This document shows, piece after piece, positions 1,792-23,143 of a DNA stretch of 27,292 nt (positions are counted from its first letter, which is position 1; the number at the start of each line of letters is the position of its first letter). Under the pieces are notes generated by a model. That model was given only the letters and a program-made list of their open reading frames with translations. It was not told the DNA's origin and ran no database searches. The stretch is taken from positions 1 to 27,292 of IMG/VR virus record IMGVR_UViG_3300046484_000042, one strand, 5' to 3'. The DNA is from a virus. A program made the position numbers and the translations under genes.

Positions 1792-2492
1792 ACCTACGAT
1801 TAGGTGATTGCCTTGAGATAATGAAAACAATACCTGACAAGTCGGTTGATATGGTTTTATCAGACCCTCCCTACGGCATAGACTTCTGCTCGTCCAGGAC
1901 GAGCAGAAAAGAACGCCTACAAAACGATAAATTAGATGATTGGTTGCCCCTGATGCAGAATTTCTTAGGAGAAGCCAAGCGAGTGCTAACAGATACTGGT
2001 TGTTGTTGTTGTTGTTGTTGTGGTGGTAAAACGCCCGTTACCGCTATATTCACAATGGAAGCTATAAAACATTTTAACCTTATCCAGACCTTAGTATGGA
2101 GAAAGTTTATCGGTTTGGGGTGGAGATATAGACCGAGCTATGAAAACATCATCATATTAAGCAAGGATAATAAAAACTACAATTTTTATGATACGAGTAA
2201 GAAATGCTCAAACGTAATTGAGGGGATAAACCAGGACATACCGCAATACAACGGCAATAAGGCCGCTTGCTTAGATGACCACCCTACGCAGAAACCCGTT
2301 GCCCTAATGAAGCATTTATTAAATATTCATTCAAAAACAGGGGACATGGTTCTCGACCCCTTTATGGGGGGGGGCTCAACAGGTATGGCTTGCAAGGAGC
2401 TTAAACGTAATTTTATAGGCATTGAAATAAAAGAGGATTATTTTAACTTAGCTCGTAAACGGATACAAAACACAATGGAGATGATGTTATGA
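1785..2492 (+). CDS. DNA methyltransferase, N4/N6 (DPPY) type, with poly-cysteine run
   Basis: A 235-residue SAM-dependent DNA methyltransferase. The catalytic motif IV is SDPPYG (residues 26-31) and the SAM-binding motif I is DPFMGGGSTG (191-200). Motif IV before motif I defines the beta-type order. A HPTQKP element (166-171) typical of these enzymes precedes motif I. DPPY most often goes with N6-adenine methylation, but N4-cytosine cannot be excluded. No target-recognition domain or restriction partner is visible, so an orphan methylase that protects phage DNA is likely. Odd points are seven consecutive cysteines (73-79) encoded by TGT repeats, a perfect hairpin just after DPPYG, and a nine-G tract coding motif I. 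It ends in an ATGA overlap with the next gene. Confidence 0.88.
   Translation: MLDLRLGDCLEIMKTIPDKSVDMVLSDPPYGIDFCSSRTSRKERLQNDKLDDWLPLMQNFLGEAKRVLTDTGCCCCCCCGGKTPVTAIFTMEAIKHFNLIQTLVWRKFIGLGWRYRPSYENIIILSKDNKNYNFYDTSKKCSNVIEGINQDIPQYNGNKAACLDDHPTQKPVALMKHLLNIHSKTGDMVLDPFMGGGSTGMACKELKRNFIGIEIKEDYFNLARKRIQNTMEMML
1884..1908 (+). repeat. Perfect 11-bp inverted repeat with 3-nt loop inside the methyltransferase
   Basis: TTCTGCTCGTC (1884-1894) is followed by CAG and then its exact reverse complement (1898-1908). It lies within codons just after the DPPYG motif and encodes F-C-S-S-R-T-S-R. No U-run follows on either strand, so it does not look like an intrinsic terminator. It could form a stable RNA hairpin early in the message. 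Confidence 0.8.
2001..2021 (+). repeat. (TGT)7 microsatellite coding seven cysteines
   Basis: Seven TGT codons in a row within the methyltransferase, flanked by GGT codons, so the whole stretch is nearly a pure TGT/GGT repeat. Slippage by one unit would change the cysteine number but not the frame. Confidence 0.9.
2366..2374 (+). repeat. G9 homopolymer in the SAM-binding motif
   Basis: Nine consecutive G residues cover the end of Met194 and the glycines of DPFMGGGSTG. A one-base change in length would shift the frame and remove the last ~40 residues of the methyltransferase, including part of motif I. Confidence 0.9.
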
Positions 2493-2737
2493 AATCTTCT
2501 TCAGAGATAGCCCAAGACATAGCCACCAACGAGCAGGAAATCAACAAAGCCGCAGATAATAGAGATACAGTTAAGATGGAGATAAATCGTTTAAGGCGTG
2601 AGATACACGCAAAGCAAATACAAATCAAGAACTTAGAGGACAGCTTAATAAAAGCCGAGTGCGTGGTAAGAGAGCTAAAGACAAATCACAATATCCTTAA
2701 AGACAGTTTTTGGCGTGCAAAGGACGAGAATTTATGA
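2489..2737 (+). CDS. Small coiled-coil protein, 82 aa
   Basis: Starts in an ATGA overlap with the methyltransferase stop. The sequence is almost entirely helical with heptad-like spacing of hydrophobic residues (MEINRLRREI...QIKNLEDSLI...VVRELKTN), so a single long coiled coil is expected. Charged residues dominate and there are no cysteine pairs or membrane segments. The family is not recognised. Similar short coiled-coil proteins are common in phage early regions and are usually assumed to be oligomeric adaptors. Confidence 0.7.
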   Translation: MKSSSEIAQDIATNEQEINKAADNRDTVKMEINRLRREIHAKQIQIKNLEDSLIKAECVVRELKTNHNILKDSFWRAKDENL

Positions 2738-2916
2738 GCGAAGAAATAAAGAGATGTTACTGCGGCCGTGAACTAAAAGAAAAATGGGGATATATCGTTT
2801 GTCCTGAACACGGGGCTTGTTGGAGAAATGCACCTATTAAGTTGCCAAAACGGGAGAAGATAGGGAAGTGGTCGGGGAAATCTAAGAGTCAGAATGCGTG
2901 GAATGACTATCAATGA
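2734..2916 (+). CDS. Small zinc-ribbon-like protein, 60 aa
   Basis: I chose the ATG at 2734 because it overlaps the previous stop as ATGA, the pattern used throughout this block; an in-frame start 24 bases upstream would lie inside the previous gene. The product has C-Y-C-G at residues 8-11 and C-P-E-H-G-A-C near residue 24, a likely zinc site. The C terminus is basic (KLPKREKIGKWSGKSKS). The family is unknown. It is coupled to the HNH-like gene by another ATGA overlap. Confidence 0.65.
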   Translation: MSEEIKRCYCGRELKEKWGYIVCPEHGACWRNAPIKLPKREKIGKWSGKSKSQNAWNDYQ

Positions 2917-3260
2917 AACGATATAGTAGTAAGAGCATAAAAGGTAAACTTGACCGATTAGTCGGGGGATTCTACCGCTCACGCCCTTGTGACCACTGCC
3001 GTAAGGACAGCCCCTCTTGCTGGGCACACATAAAGTCAAGGAGGTATTTAAGCACTCGCTGGCTACCTACCAACGCATTTTCTCTTTGTAACTCTTGCCA
3101 TCGCTGGGCTCACGACCACCCAGACAGCTTTACGCAATGGATAGACTTGTATTGCCCGGGGAGATTAAAGGAGCTCCAAAGAGCATTTAATATATCCGAA
3201 CCCATTAAGAAAGCTTGGTTGGAAGAACTTTATGAGAAACTTAAACTTGAATTACAGTAA
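2913..3260 (+). CDS. HNH-type nuclease, NinG-like arrangement
   Basis: A 115-residue protein whose first 70 residues carry an HNH signature: Cys26-x2-Cys29, then His39 in AHIKSRR, Asn54 in PTNAF, Cys59-x2-Cys62-His63 and His67. The four cysteines would hold a structural zinc and the histidines and asparagine form the nicking site. The arrangement recalls phage NinG/Rap-type recombination proteins that act on branched DNA, as well as small phage HNH enzymes near packaging genes. Position among early recombination-type genes favours the first. The C-terminal helix (LEELYEKLKLELQ) may help dimerise. The HNH fold is fairly sure; the subfamily is not. Confidence 0.72.
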   Translation: MKRYSSKSIKGKLDRLVGGFYRSRPCDHCRKDSPSCWAHIKSRRYLSTRWLPTNAFSLCNSCHRWAHDHPDSFTQWIDLYCPGRLKELQRAFNISEPIKKAWLEELYEKLKLELQ

Positions 3261-3282
3261 ATTGTGTTAGTATGAGGTGCAA

Positions 3283-3465
3283 ATGACCACCAAGACCCCT
3301 AAAGGGAGATGTGATTGGGTAGAAGATTATGAAAGCAATTGGACAGCGACTTGCAATGACGAGATATTTGTCTTTACTACTGACGGCGTAGAAGAAAATG
3401 GATTTAAGTTTTGCCCTTATTGCGGTAAGACGATAAAAATTAATCGGTATAAGGAGGATTTATGA
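3283..3465 (+). CDS. Small phage zinc-ribbon protein, 60 aa
   Basis: Start placed at the ATG at 3283, four bases after a GAGG motif; a GTG six bases upstream is a weaker alternative because it lies inside that motif. The sequence layout C-D-W...W-T-A-T-C...F-C-P-Y-C-G-K is one I recognise as a recurrent, unnamed small phage protein: a ribbon built from two spaced cysteines and a terminal CPYCGK pair. The function is unknown. It ends with an ATGA overlap into the next gene. Confidence 0.7.
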   Translation: MTTKTPKGRCDWVEDYESNWTATCNDEIFVFTTDGVEENGFKFCPYCGKTIKINRYKEDL

Positions 3466-11000: not shown

Positions 11001-11234
11001 TTACCCCCCAAATAGTGCTAACTGTGAGTTTACGTTATCCAATTGGCTCTGTAGGTCATCAAGATCTGTCTGAATTATATCAATTGATATTTTATCGGCG
11101 TCCATTCTGTCTTGTAAAGCTTGTGCCTGTGCAGTAAGGTCGTCTTTTGAAAGCGTAACCGTAACATCAATTGAGCTTCCGTCATCTGATAACTTCTGGT
11201 CTTTTATCTTTGAGTTTGACATTTCTAGTGGCAT
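11001..11234 (-). CDS. Small coiled-coil protein downstream of tail genes, 77 aa
   Basis: The ATG at 11234 has GGAG five bases upstream, so the start MPLEMSNSK is preferred over the internal Met. The N-terminal third is strand-like (SSIDVTVTLS) and the rest is a predicted coiled coil with heptad leucines and isoleucines (LQDRMDADKISIDIIQTDLDDLQSQL). Nine bases separate it from the Hint-containing gene upstream. A tail-fibre chaperone or small tail component is plausible from position only. Confidence 0.6.
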   Translation of the reverse strand: MPLEMSNSKIKDQKLSDDGSSIDVTVTLSKDDLTAQAQALQDRMDADKISIDIIQTDLDDLQSQLDNVNSQLALFGG

Positions 11235-11242
11235 AGTTCTCC

Positions 11243-12166
11243 TTAAATTACGTCAAAACGTAGTTGGTTACCTTGAATCCTAAGTTGAGGTTGAGCTGCG
11301 AGATAATAAACTTTCATCTGGATATCATCTACGTAAACTATTAGTCCAGCTTTGTTGTGGACTGTAAATCCATTGGCAATAAACTTATTTGGTTTGCCTA
11401 CTGAGAGATTATAGACCTTAGTTTTCTTCTCAATAATTTTTAAAGAAGTAACCTTTGCATATAAACCATTTCTGACCACCATATCCCCAAGTTTAAGCTC
11501 ACCAAGTTTTACAAAACCTTTGTCGGTGAGAAATGGGTGTTCTTGTGAAGCTGTAACTTGATTGTTTAGACATATTACTTTATCTACGATATGAGAACTA
11601 TTTGCCTCTACTTTTACCAAAGTCTTATCATGGGCTATAATAGTATCTCCTACCTTCAACTTCTCTATGGCAATATATCCTTTTGGTGTCGATATCTTCG
11701 TCCCTTTAATAAAACAGGTTCCAGTGTAAGCTGACAGAGCTACTCCTGCACTTGTTCCATTAAGATCAGCAGGTGCCCAAGACCTACCCCAAAGCTGAGA
11801 TGAACCACCATAAGATGAGTAAACCCCAGAACTAGGCCAATATGTTCCACCAGCGATAGCTAAATCTGTTCCGCCAATTGTTCCTGCTGCATTTATTAAT
11901 TGACAATGGACATCGTAGGCTTTTGAAGCACTTTGACAATACTTGTAAATTTGGACTTCTATTCCGGTTATGGTTGCTCCTGTAGGAATTCCACAATTAT
12001 ATGAAGTACCTTTTATCCAATGTGTAATATATGTTGCAGTCAAACCTGTATTTGTCGAATATTGTGTATTGTGTGATGTTATATAACTAGGGTTTGCCCA
12101 AGTAGATGCACCTGTACTTGAGTCATCAGTTCCGTACGATGGATTTATCCAGCCAGTATCAGACAT
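11243..12166 (-). CDS. Tail/fibre-associated protein interrupted by a Hint (intein-like) domain
   Basis: The start is taken at 12166, in an ATGTCTGA overlap with the previous stop; the longer frame to 12391 would run antiparallel to no signal and lie in the previous gene. Residues 1-150 are a beta-rich, Gly/Ser/Tyr-rich domain of the sort found in phage fibres (W-I-N-P-S-Y, GGSSQLWGRSW, GVALSAYTGT). Residues 151-271 are a Hint domain. Residues 272-307 resume the beta domain (KAGLIVYVDDIQMKVYY). Removing the Hint region joins two halves of one strand-rich domain. The +1 residue is Lys, so classical splicing is unlikely; self-cleavage is possible. Confidence 0.8.
   Translation of the reverse strand: MSDTGWINPSYGTDDSSTGASTWANPSYITSHNTQYSTNTGLTATYITHWIKGTSYNCGIPTGATITGIEVQIYKYCQSASKAYDVHCQLINAAGTIGGTDLAIAGGTYWPSSGVYSSYGGSSQLWGRSWAPADLNGTSAGVALSAYTGTCFIKGTKISTPKGYIAIEKLKVGDTIIAHDKTLVKVEANSSHIVDKVICLNNQVTASQEHPFLTDKGFVKLGELKLGDMVVRNGLYAKVTSLKIIEKKTKVYNLSVGKPNKFIANGFTVHNKAGLIVYVDDIQMKVYYLAAQPQLRIQGNQLRFDVI
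11354..11716 (-). other. Hint/bacterial intein-like domain coding segment
   Basis: Codes residues 151-271 of the tail protein. It starts with Cys151 (CFIKGTKISTPKG, block A), contains LKVGDTIIAHD, a block-B-like S-x-x-H at 207-210 (SQEHPFL), VYNLSV (251-256, block F) and ends FIANGFTVHN with His270-Asn271 (block G). At about 121 residues it has no homing endonuclease. The residue after Asn is Lys, as in A-type bacterial intein-like domains rather than true inteins. Confidence 0.82.
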
Positions 12167-12713
12167 TATGTATCCTAAAGTAAGAGTTCTTAACCGTGAT
12201 TGATGGTACTGAAGTCCAAGTCTGACTCCCCACAGAATAAAGTTGATGGAAAGTATAGACATGTCCGACAGCACTTGCAGAGAAATAGATAGACCATAGA
12301 TTTTCTTGCCACCAATTAGTACTAAGATTAATTCCAGTAATCTGGGATGAAGTATCTTGAGCGGAACCAGCAGTCCAATCAGTCCCACCACCAGGAGCAG
12401 TAAGTATAGAATCTACTGAAGCCCCGTTTGTAAAATAAGGACTGTCTGCCATGGAGATAAAGTCTGCTCCTATAGTCGTAGGGACTTGAGCATAAGCCCC
12501 ACCATCAATACTATATTGTAGGGTACAGGTAGATCCAGTTTGAACAGGAGTAGTCAAAGATTGGATTCTTAATATTGTTATAACCGGAGGTAATGCTATT
12601 GTAGATTGAATAGCTGCTACGTTAGTATCTTCTGCCGCATAAGCAGATTCTAGACCTACCCCTGCATCATCTTGATATATTCTAAAGTGAGTTTGTGTGA
12701 CTGGGGCTGCCAC
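12159..12713 (-). CDS. Fibre-associated beta-rich protein, 184 aa
   Basis: Begins at a GTG (TAGTG overlap with the tail fibre stop). The sequence has many aromatic and Thr/Ser-rich strands (THFRIYQDDAG, CTLQYSIDGGAYAQVP, NWWQENLWSIYFSASA) and ends with a strand, SYFRIHNV. This layout resembles lectin-like or receptor-binding domains that follow fibres in phage genomes. No catalytic motif is evident. It is followed in an 8-base overlap by the Hint-bearing protein, so the two may be parts of one adhesin complex. Confidence 0.65.
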   Translation of the reverse strand: MAAPVTQTHFRIYQDDAGVGLESAYAAEDTNVAAIQSTIALPPVITILRIQSLTTPVQTGSTCTLQYSIDGGAYAQVPTTIGADFISMADSPYFTNGASVDSILTAPGGGTDWTAGSAQDTSSQITGINLSTNWWQENLWSIYFSASAVGHVYTFHQLYSVGSQTWTSVPSITVKNSYFRIHNV

Positions 12714-20595: not shown

Positions 20596-20871
20596 TTATT
20601 GCCACCCTGTTCCAGACGGCTCGGTTACACAAATTTTAACTGTGAATGTTGCACCATTTTTATATATCACCATATCACCATATCTTCCATTTCTATTATG
20701 ATTTGGGTCTTGAGTTACTACTGTTAAGTTATTCATATTATCGTGAATTGTTTTAAAATACTTTAGCGTTGCTTTTGAGTCGTCCACTGTTGGAGGGTCA
20801 GGCATTACCCCTGCGTATGCGACACCCGTTATAAAAATAAATAAACTACACTTGGTCAGTAGGTTCCACAT
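20596..20871 (-). CDS. Small secreted protein, 91 aa
   Basis: Starts within the end of the propeller gene (26-base overlap). Residues 1-20 (WNLLTKCSLFIFITGVAYA) are a signal peptide with an AYA cleavage site before GVMPDPP. The mature 71 residues include a YFKTIHDNMNNLTVV helix and a two-strand end (GDMVIYKNGATFTVKICV). No family recognised. It sits between two other secreted virion-block proteins, so the three may act together. Confidence 0.65.
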   Translation of the reverse strand: MWNLLTKCSLFIFITGVAYAGVMPDPPTVDDSKATLKYFKTIHDNMNNLTVVTQDPNHNRNGRYGDMVIYKNGATFTVKICVTEPSGTGWQ

Positions 20872-23143
20872 AATTTATAAACCCGAATATAGTAAATCCC
20901 TCTCCAACATTATTATTAGAATATTTCAATCTAAACATCTGCGTTCCTAACTCTACTTCCTGACGGTCTACAATTAGTGATTGTCCACCCCAAAGAGATT
21001 GGTCCCAGATAGCCGTATCCCAGAGAGCAAGGGATTGACCCAAAGTAATAGCAAACTGTTTTCCTAATTGGTAATCATTATCACAATTCATTAAAAGAGT
21101 ACAACCATTTGTTTGGGATAAGACGTAAGTTGTTACTACACGCCAGTATTTATAGGCAAGAGATAAATCCTGATACTTCCACCACTTCGTTTGGTAGTAA
21201 GCATTGATAGCGGTATTAGCGGTAGTTGAAATTCCATATGGTGCAGTAGGAACTGTAAAATTGGTAGTCCAGCGAGCGGTATTAGAAACTCTTAACTCAT
21301 CTATATATCCGCTAAAAAACAAAGCTGTTCCTGATACGCATTTACCAACCTGAAAGGCACTGCTTGCGGCGGTTATATTAGTAACAGGACTGTTCGCTAC
21401 TGTCCCGACAGAGTTTCCATTTACATAAGCTGTAACTGCTGTCCCGTTTCTTACAATAGCGATATGATATAACGTATTTATAGACATCCCGTGAGCAACA
21501 TTCAAACGTATAGTCCAACCACTTGAATACATTGCGGCAAAATCTATATTTCCTGCTGAATTAAATACTAAACACCAACCATCTGAACCAGCATTCCAGT
21601 TGCTATCTCCGCATACATAATAAGTAGTTGATACGCTTGGTATATTGACCCAACAGTCAATAGTAAAATTTCCTGCAAAATCAAAATCGGTACTATGGGC
21701 AACAGAAAGAAAAGTTGTCGCACCATCAAAAGCACCCGATAATCCCCATTTATATTGTCCAGTAGTAGAGGAATACGTTAATCCTGTAGGAGTTACAGTT
21801 TTTCCTCCCGCACTATCAGTTACATTATTATCTAAATGAAGTAATAATTTAGAATTAGTATCAGCGGCAGGTTGAGTATTAGTAACATCAGAACTTGTAG
21901 TAGTGGGATAATAATATAAGTAACCACCATAATCTCCCCAGATTAAGATATTCTGACCTACTGCATTATCTCCCACACACCAAGCGTTAGGTGACCAACC
22001 ACCAAATACTGACCATGCTTTCTTTTCAGTATCAAAGAAAAGAACCGTATCGTTAGTTGACGATGCCGCAGAAGAACCCGATACATACAAGTCATAATTG
22101 GCATATTTATAAGTAGAGAACGGAATGGTAAGCATTTGATTCGCACGGGAGAAGTTTAATCCACCGATAGTACCCCGTATCTTAGATGATGGATAAACTA
22201 CGTTGTAGGTTCCGTCGTAGACAGCGACGTCGCCTTGTGCGGTAGTAAAGTAAATGAAGTTACCAATTACACTTAGTGACTGTTGCGACATTGTACCTAC
22301 ATCAGAAACCAATAACTGTAAGGTGAAGTTATCTATGTTATCTCCCGTTAGACACCAAATAGAGCGGTCTTTAAAGATATATAGAGCGTTAAATGCCGCT
22401 ACCAAACCACGAACTGACTGTCCGTCATTAACATTGACGTCAATGAAGTTTATTAAAGGCCATACGGTTATTCCGTTTGTAAGGTCGGAGAAGTGAACAC
22501 GGGAGGTATTTATAGTATCGTTAGTGAATAACTGGTTTTTATAATAGACAACTATCGAGCAAGTAGGAGCCCGTGTATCAGCGGTAAGAGCGGTAACGAC
22601 TCCTGACCCTGACCACATAAAGGGTTTCTGTCCCACGCTATCAGGCAAGGCCATTACAAGAGTATTAGAAGCAACAGTAAATGAGGTGAAAGAGTTATTA
22701 GTATATCCTGTAGTAGGAACTGTGCCTGAACCTGTTATATCTGTATAAGGTCCAGCAGGTATCCCGCCTCCCAAGGAATAAGTTTTATAAGATATAGCAG
22801 CAGAAGCGTTATTGACAGAACCAGTAGCAACCAAGTAACGATTACCGTCATTTTTCCTGTAAACATATACCCCCGTTACTACGCAGTTTGTCCCACCTGA
22901 GATTGTATAAGCGGCGTCAGATGGAACGATACCATAACCATATCTCTTACTTATTGCACCGCCGGTATCAAATACAACGTTCTGTAGGTCGGTAGCTTCA
23001 TTGTCAGCTATCTCAGTCGGAGAGAGAGTGTTATTGAGGCCACCGTTGTTGGAGAAATAATTAAATTTCTGCCACGTCACAGCCGCTTGGCACGAAGTCG
23101 TTATGAGTAATCCAATAATTATTAAACTAAGTTTCTTTATCAT
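20846..23143 (-). CDS. Propeller-like tail/stabilisation protein with inserted LamG domain and signal peptide, 765 aa
   Basis: Residues 1-20 (MIKKLSLIIIGLLITTSCQA) are a signal peptide. Residues ~28-430 match the style of podovirus tail stabilisation/hub proteins: NGGLNNTLSPTEIADNEATDL, then repeated strand blocks (VRGLVAAFNALYIFKDRSIW). Residues ~433-637 are a LamG/concanavalin-like module (LLLHLDNN, GAFDGATTFLSV, FTIDCWVN, IDELRVSNTARW), usually sugar-binding. The first fold seems to resume at ~645-765 (TKWWKYQDLSLAYKYW), so LamG looks like an insertion. Start and stop are in overlaps with neighbours. Hub/stabiliser identity is inferred, LamG is clear. Confidence 0.72.
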   Translation of the reverse strand: MIKKLSLIIIGLLITTSCQAAVTWQKFNYFSNNGGLNNTLSPTEIADNEATDLQNVVFDTGGAISKRYGYGIVPSDAAYTISGGTNCVVTGVYVYRKNDGNRYLVATGSVNNASAAISYKTYSLGGGIPAGPYTDITGSGTVPTTGYTNNSFTSFTVASNTLVMALPDSVGQKPFMWSGSGVVTALTADTRAPTCSIVVYYKNQLFTNDTINTSRVHFSDLTNGITVWPLINFIDVNVNDGQSVRGLVAAFNALYIFKDRSIWCLTGDNIDNFTLQLLVSDVGTMSQQSLSVIGNFIYFTTAQGDVAVYDGTYNVVYPSSKIRGTIGGLNFSRANQMLTIPFSTYKYANYDLYVSGSSAASSTNDTVLFFDTEKKAWSVFGGWSPNAWCVGDNAVGQNILIWGDYGGYLYYYPTTTSSDVTNTQPAADTNSKLLLHLDNNVTDSAGGKTVTPTGLTYSSTTGQYKWGLSGAFDGATTFLSVAHSTDFDFAGNFTIDCWVNIPSVSTTYYVCGDSNWNAGSDGWCLVFNSAGNIDFAAMYSSGWTIRLNVAHGMSINTLYHIAIVRNGTAVTAYVNGNSVGTVANSPVTNITAASSAFQVGKCVSGTALFFSGYIDELRVSNTARWTTNFTVPTAPYGISTTANTAINAYYQTKWWKYQDLSLAYKYWRVVTTYVLSQTNGCTLLMNCDNDYQLGKQFAITLGQSLALWDTAIWDQSLWGGQSLIVDRQEVELGTQMFRLKYSNNNVGEGFTIFGFINYVEPTDQV

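Follow-up and report, generated by a model that had tools for sequence, protein, structure and literature searches.

Most familiar inteins sit in enzymes of replication and packaging. Among other Hint domains, the A-type bacterial intein-like (BIL) domains are defined by a +1 residue that is not a nucleophile; splicing through aminolysis has been proposed for them, and splicing has been reported, according to PMC4031507, which cites Dassa 2004 and Aranko 2013. Reviews describe cleavage products as dominating the reactions of A-type BILs (PMC4031507, PMC7664689), and the BIL of M. magnetotacticum, which carries Tyr at +1, did not splice until that residue was changed to Cys (PMC4031507). For BIL2 of the Tetrahymena BUBL, part of a multi-domain locus, a Lys isopeptide product has been reported (PMC8616854). 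Here we describe a Hint that interrupts a viral tail domain, which only ligation could make whole, in a window of 27,292 nucleotides (the whole stretch of DNA that was analysed, from IMG/VR virus record IMGVR_UViG_3300046484_000042). The Hint appears to be of a known kind, the A-type BIL; what is new is Lys at +1 within a viral tail domain, and a splicing function is plausible from the sequence.

A tail-type protein interrupted by a Hint domain

The ORF of 307 residues has a suitably spaced AGGA 5' of its ATG. Its parts and its neighbours are as follows.

11243–12166, minus strand: CDS of a tail-type, CBM-like beta-sandwich protein interrupted by the Hint (307 aa, stop included)
11717–12166, minus strand: N-flank, residues 1–150, the host beta-sandwich through its next-to-last strand, assigned from homology to Hint-less loci and the model of the homologue L248
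11354–11716, minus strand: Hint or A-type BIL-like domain, residues 151–271, assigned from Pfam, PDB sequence, fold and profile matches
11714–11716, minus strand: Cys151, the putative N-terminal nucleophile
11537–11539, minus strand: His210, the block-B His, with Ser207 before it where most have Thr
11354–11359, minus strand: His270-Asn271, the putative C-terminal catalytic pair (Asn271 at 11354–11356)
11351–11353, minus strand: Lys272, the +1 residue
11246–11353, minus strand: C-flank, residues 272–307, the final host beta-sandwich strand and a 19-aa tail
12159–12713, minus strand: upstream gene, 184 aa, with an 8-base overlap with the start of the 307-aa CDS (context only)
11001–11234, minus strand: downstream gene, 77 aa, in the same direction (context only)

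Elsewhere in the window, a 765-aa protein with a Laminin_G_3 domain (20846–23143, minus strand) is likely to be another glycan-binding tail part.

By sequence and predicted fold, residues 151–271 are a complete mini Hint that lacks an endonuclease and resembles A-type BILs. The original prediction had placed a Hint at these residues with Lys at +1, and Pfam, the sequence match to 2lwy and the predicted fold all bear it out. The region matches the Pfam families PT-HINT (3.9e-11) and Hint_2 (1.4e-9), and also Intein_splicing (2.9e-7), the last under its cut-off. The nearest PDB sequence by phmmer is the C. thermocellum BIL 2lwy (2.2e-9), with the gp41-1 intein at 3.7e-3; a profile match to 2lwy reaches 5e-39. 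AlphaFold modelling, which had been proposed as a check, returned a Hint fold: the AlphaFold2 model of the Hint with its flanks has a pLDDT of 87, exceeding 90 across most of the Hint, and its structural matches rank 2lwy at the top, next BIL2 of Tetrahymena BUBL1 and next gp41-1. The absence of an endonuclease, also predicted, holds as well, since a Hint of 121 aa leaves no room for one. Cys151, the block-B His210 and His270-Asn271 are all kept. Two residues near the active site depart from consensus, Ser207 in place of the block-B Thr and Asn260 in place of the block-F His, each a substitution seen in a minority of relatives.

The flanks had been read as two halves of one beta domain, and this proved correct. 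With the Hint present, the Hint-less tail protein of MW202473 aligned to residues 1–146 (tblastn against phages; 61 bits, 3e-8); once the flanks were joined, the alignment reached residues 1–167 and 72 bits (3e-13) and was gap-free at the join. A profile scan of viral contigs for the host domain identified 142 relatives, 80 of which were fetched. The search for tail genes without the Hint, another proposed check, thus produced 83 Hint-less loci that span the seam (about 80 distinct contigs, as L276, L308 and L321 repeat L007–L009); over query residues 140–160 their net length difference is at most 2 residues in 76 of 83 and at most 4 in 82 of 83. As these homologous loci run uninterrupted over the seam, the Hint is a true insert. 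Full-protein MAFFT alignments with mixed rows put host rows onto the Hint and were set aside for folding; the Hint and the host were modelled separately. L248, a homologue without the Hint, was modelled with a pLDDT of 97; there the seam is a turn at residues 145–148, between the last two strands, and the fold is similar to that of carbohydrate-binding modules (families 4, 16 and 61), with modest scores (E ~3e-4, TM ~0.4). Given this hairpin turn and the lengths of the Hint-less homologues, removal of the Hint with ligation would restore a CBM-like domain. The Hint has a GC content of 34%, its two flanks 41% and 36%, which points weakly to a separate origin.

No Hint was found by profile search in the fetched host-domain relatives (80 of 142), and searches of viral contigs revealed neither a close relative of the whole 307-aa gene nor a second phage with a Hint in this host domain. 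One candidate for such an insertion, L292, was rejected, being two host domains in tandem. In another locus (L010, 1149–1724), the segments of the host beta domain follow another order, which looks like a rearrangement.

Lysine at the +1 position

The original prediction had held that ordinary splicing chemistry is missing here. Canonical trans-esterification is indeed impossible with Lys at +1, and the prediction was right to look to other routes, but Lys is not thereby a sign of degeneration, because a non-nucleophilic +1 residue defines A-type BILs (PMC4031507). We collected Hints from viral contigs and from bacterial and archaeal genomes, using in the two larger scans a profile without the +1 position, and clustered them at 80% identity. 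The +1 residue of the resulting 108 clusters is most often Lys (42), followed by Ala (13), Cys (12) and Thr (8), with others fewer, although the samples are non-random, related sequences are not independent and counts of clusters are not counts of events. Among viral clusters without the window copy, 27 of 51 have Lys at +1, or 27 of 39 once those with Cys or Ser are removed; by contrast, inteins of viral enzymes that these scans also picked up have Cys in nearly all cases. Each of the 42 Lys+1 clusters keeps Cys1, the block-B His, the penultimate His and the terminal Asn, as do nearly all other BIL-like clusters. At +1, some close relatives among the viruses have Arg or another residue instead.

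Lys at +1 is not a chance loss. The Lys+1 Hints have a median identity of 33%, falling to only 11% over residues +2 to +6, and their flanks, with the Hint masked, form about 30 unrelated clusters. On a tree of the Hints, the Lys label requires 19 changes, compared with at least 27 in 200 shuffles, which suggests that Lys at +1 is partly inherited yet has arisen in several Hint groups. Bias from the seeds was considered and rejected: a rescan with five non-Lys seeds (+1 Gly, Ala, Gly, Glu and Ala) again gave Lys in 14 of 22 viral clusters, with Arg in 3 of 22. Nor is Lys272 likely to be left over from the host loop, where just 1.5% of the residues in Hint-less homologues are Lys. In at least 7 loci a stop codon follows directly after a lone +1 Lys (listed are L101, L102, L110, L136, L147, L149, L233, L344 and L358), so Lys can be the entire C-flank. 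As Lys recurs after many Hints whose viral structural proteins are unrelated, it probably has a part in their working, and we read these Hints as a BIL-like subclass, found in structural proteins of viruses, with Lys, or sometimes Arg, at +1. A literature search, with most subscription papers outside its scope, gave no match for Lys+1 or tail-fibre Hints.

Hints also occur in other arrangements. Several viral or microbial proteins contain them in tandem (L091 at 2197–3384, L103, L152, L157, L245 and L330), and most or all of the copies have Lys at +1; the three consecutive Hints of L091 have the junctions HN|KGCF, HN|KGGGGCF and HN|KGFSGG. C-terminal arrays in L147, L149, L344 and L358 show the +1 progression HN|AP, HN|R and HN|K-stop. 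In a further five (L044, L059, L069, L071 and L094), the final Hint of the array ends in LVSD|ESE and, having lost His-Asn, may retain only the N-terminal reaction. Other Hints lie about 7–21 residues from the N-terminus (L092, L093, L095, L096, L109 and L138, plus L105 with Gly at +1), where only a short N-flank would be transferred; L096 has tail-tip J domains by Pfam (Phage-tail_3, FNIII-A_GpJ), and the flanks of L109 and L138 are homologous. Marine viral proline-rich proteins (L012–L015, L017–L021, L025, L027 and relatives) surround the Hint with PPIM|CFVAGT...VSHN|KLPP, and collagen-like repeat tail proteins (L029, L038, L050, L051, L053, L060, L061 and L065) place it amid repeats (GPT|CFIPST...LVHN|MSS). 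The Ruminococcus phage NatCom_3870 (L003) has several separate PT-HINT-like ORFs in one small region, with differing C-terminal parts and Ala or Ser at +1. In Phage NCTB (L326, 548–4462), a large protein of the tail region, annotated as 'large intein domain protein', carries its Hint right at the C-terminal end, and the short C-flank begins with Ala. These findings point to viral structural proteins as the home of a Hint group that is marked by Lys at +1 and often arranged in tandem arrays.

Ligation, cleavage and other possible outcomes

We give roughly an even chance to the reading in which the window Hint is an A-type BIL of the Lys+1 subclass that processes itself to ligate its flanks through the Lys272 amine. 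An N-S acyl shift at Thr150-Cys151, assisted by His210, would be followed by cyclisation of Asn271, assisted by His270, which would release Lys272. The Lys272 amine, by default the new alpha-amine, would then attack the thioester and join residues 1–150 to 272–307. The product, ...AYTGT-KAGLIVYVDD..., would be a 186-residue host protein folding as one domain, with the 121-aa Hint lost, and cleaved by-products would be expected, as with known A-type BILs. Counting for ligation are the best sequence and fold match, to the C. thermocellum BIL 2lwy, flanks that join without remainder at a hairpin turn, the invariant catalytic residues of the Lys+1 clusters and the recurrence of Lys at +1 despite its rarity in the host loop; counting against it are the less common Ser207 and Asn260, the Arg or other +1 residues of some viral relatives, the cleavage products that dominate in A-type BILs, the Tyr+1 BIL that did not splice and the lack of a second phage with this insertion among the viral contigs searched. 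Sequence comparison shows that the Hint is an insert, to which fold family it belongs, that its catalytic residues are intact and its seam clean, and that Lys recurs at +1; activity, the order of the steps and a preference for ligation over cleavage are what we infer.

Between ligation and loss of the C-terminal piece of 36 residues, the intact seam speaks for ligation. If the Hint instead cut at Asn271-Lys272, at Cys151 or at both without ligation, the tail protein would be matured by cleavage alone, with the C-piece lost or bound as the last strand. The mainly cleaved products of known A-type BILs (PMC4031507, PMC7664689) and the impossibility of canonical trans-esterification for Lys speak for such an outcome, which we nonetheless consider unlikely: the last beta-sandwich strand sits in the C-piece, release of a piece would not need the length of uninterrupted homologues to be restored at the seam, and in the loci with a lone Lys before the stop, C-terminal cleavage would free just a lysine. 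The same strand and the match of the joined flanks to the Hint-less length make it less likely that freeing this piece is the purpose of the Hint, as had been suggested. A domain that merely folds, inert or decayed, and is carried as a surface loop of the tail would be tolerated in a hairpin turn, and Ser207 and Asn260 are off consensus; with the central catalytic residues all kept and a confident predicted fold, we regard this as very improbable.

A further route would make the Lys side chain the acceptor, the epsilon-amine of Lys272, or a Lys of another protein, taking the N-flank from the thioester; the product would be a branched isopeptide, or tail subunits would be crosslinked. In viral structural Hints, Lys is enriched at +1 well beyond any other residue, isopeptide bonds of the K(epsilon-NH2)-C-ter kind have been reported for BUBL1 BIL2, second among the distinct fold matches (PMC8616854), and the lone Lys after some Hints suggests that Lys itself matters. 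However, Arg, which is incapable of this role, replaces Lys in several close relatives, which argues against a constant need for the epsilon-amine, and an intramolecular branch would be an unusual chain linkage within a beta-hairpin; we judge this route improbable for the window Hint. Viral structural Hints might, more broadly, form a distinct class with the epsilon-amine of the +1 Lys as a dedicated thioester acceptor, whose branched or intersubunit isopeptides would cross-link or cap tails and capsids without enzyme or ATP, a proposal that we hold to be quite improbable. Either outcome would be of consequence: splicing supported by Lys would extend the set of +1 residues that allow ligation and would be useful as a tool, and a side-chain acceptor would mean enzyme-free formation of isopeptide bonds in virions.

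Comparison with described Hint domains

The class 1 mini-inteins, such as gp41-1 (6qaz), share with the window Hint the fold, blocks A, B, F and G and an exact seam in the host domain. Exact insertion with insert-less homologues is found here as in inteins of this class; the window Hint differs from them in having Lys272 rather than Cys, Ser or Thr at +1. PT-HINT of polymorphic toxins (PF07591) is the best Pfam match, and its +1 residue is variable; unlike in these toxins, no toxin domain follows the window Hint, whose C-flank instead supplies the host fold with its last strand. BUBL BIL2 (6y75, 6tmm) resembles it in fold, but is eukaryotic and lies between ubiquitin-like domains, whereas the window Hint stands singly in the tail domain of a virus, where a Lys acceptor would be hypothetical.

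The closest likeness is to A-type BILs such as 2lwy. Both have the Hint fold, Cys1, a TxxH-type block B, the block-F Y-N and a C-terminal His-Asn, and both lack an endonuclease and a Cys, Ser or Thr at +1. The sequence and fold traits by which A-type BILs are recognized are found here (a Hint fold with N-terminal Cys and block-B His, C-terminal His-Asn and a non-nucleophilic +1 residue), and the sequence is nearer to a known A-type BIL than to inteins (2.2e-9 against 3.7e-3 for gp41-1). The window Hint differs in having Lys at +1, recurring in viral relatives, and in its location: A-type BILs lie in variable regions of secreted bacterial proteins, whereas this Hint has a clean seam within the fold of a phage tail domain; the viral family of that domain is conserved, but the loop that holds the Hint is variable. 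As this mismatch is a trait of distribution rather than of chemistry, we file the window Hint as a variant of the A-type BILs.
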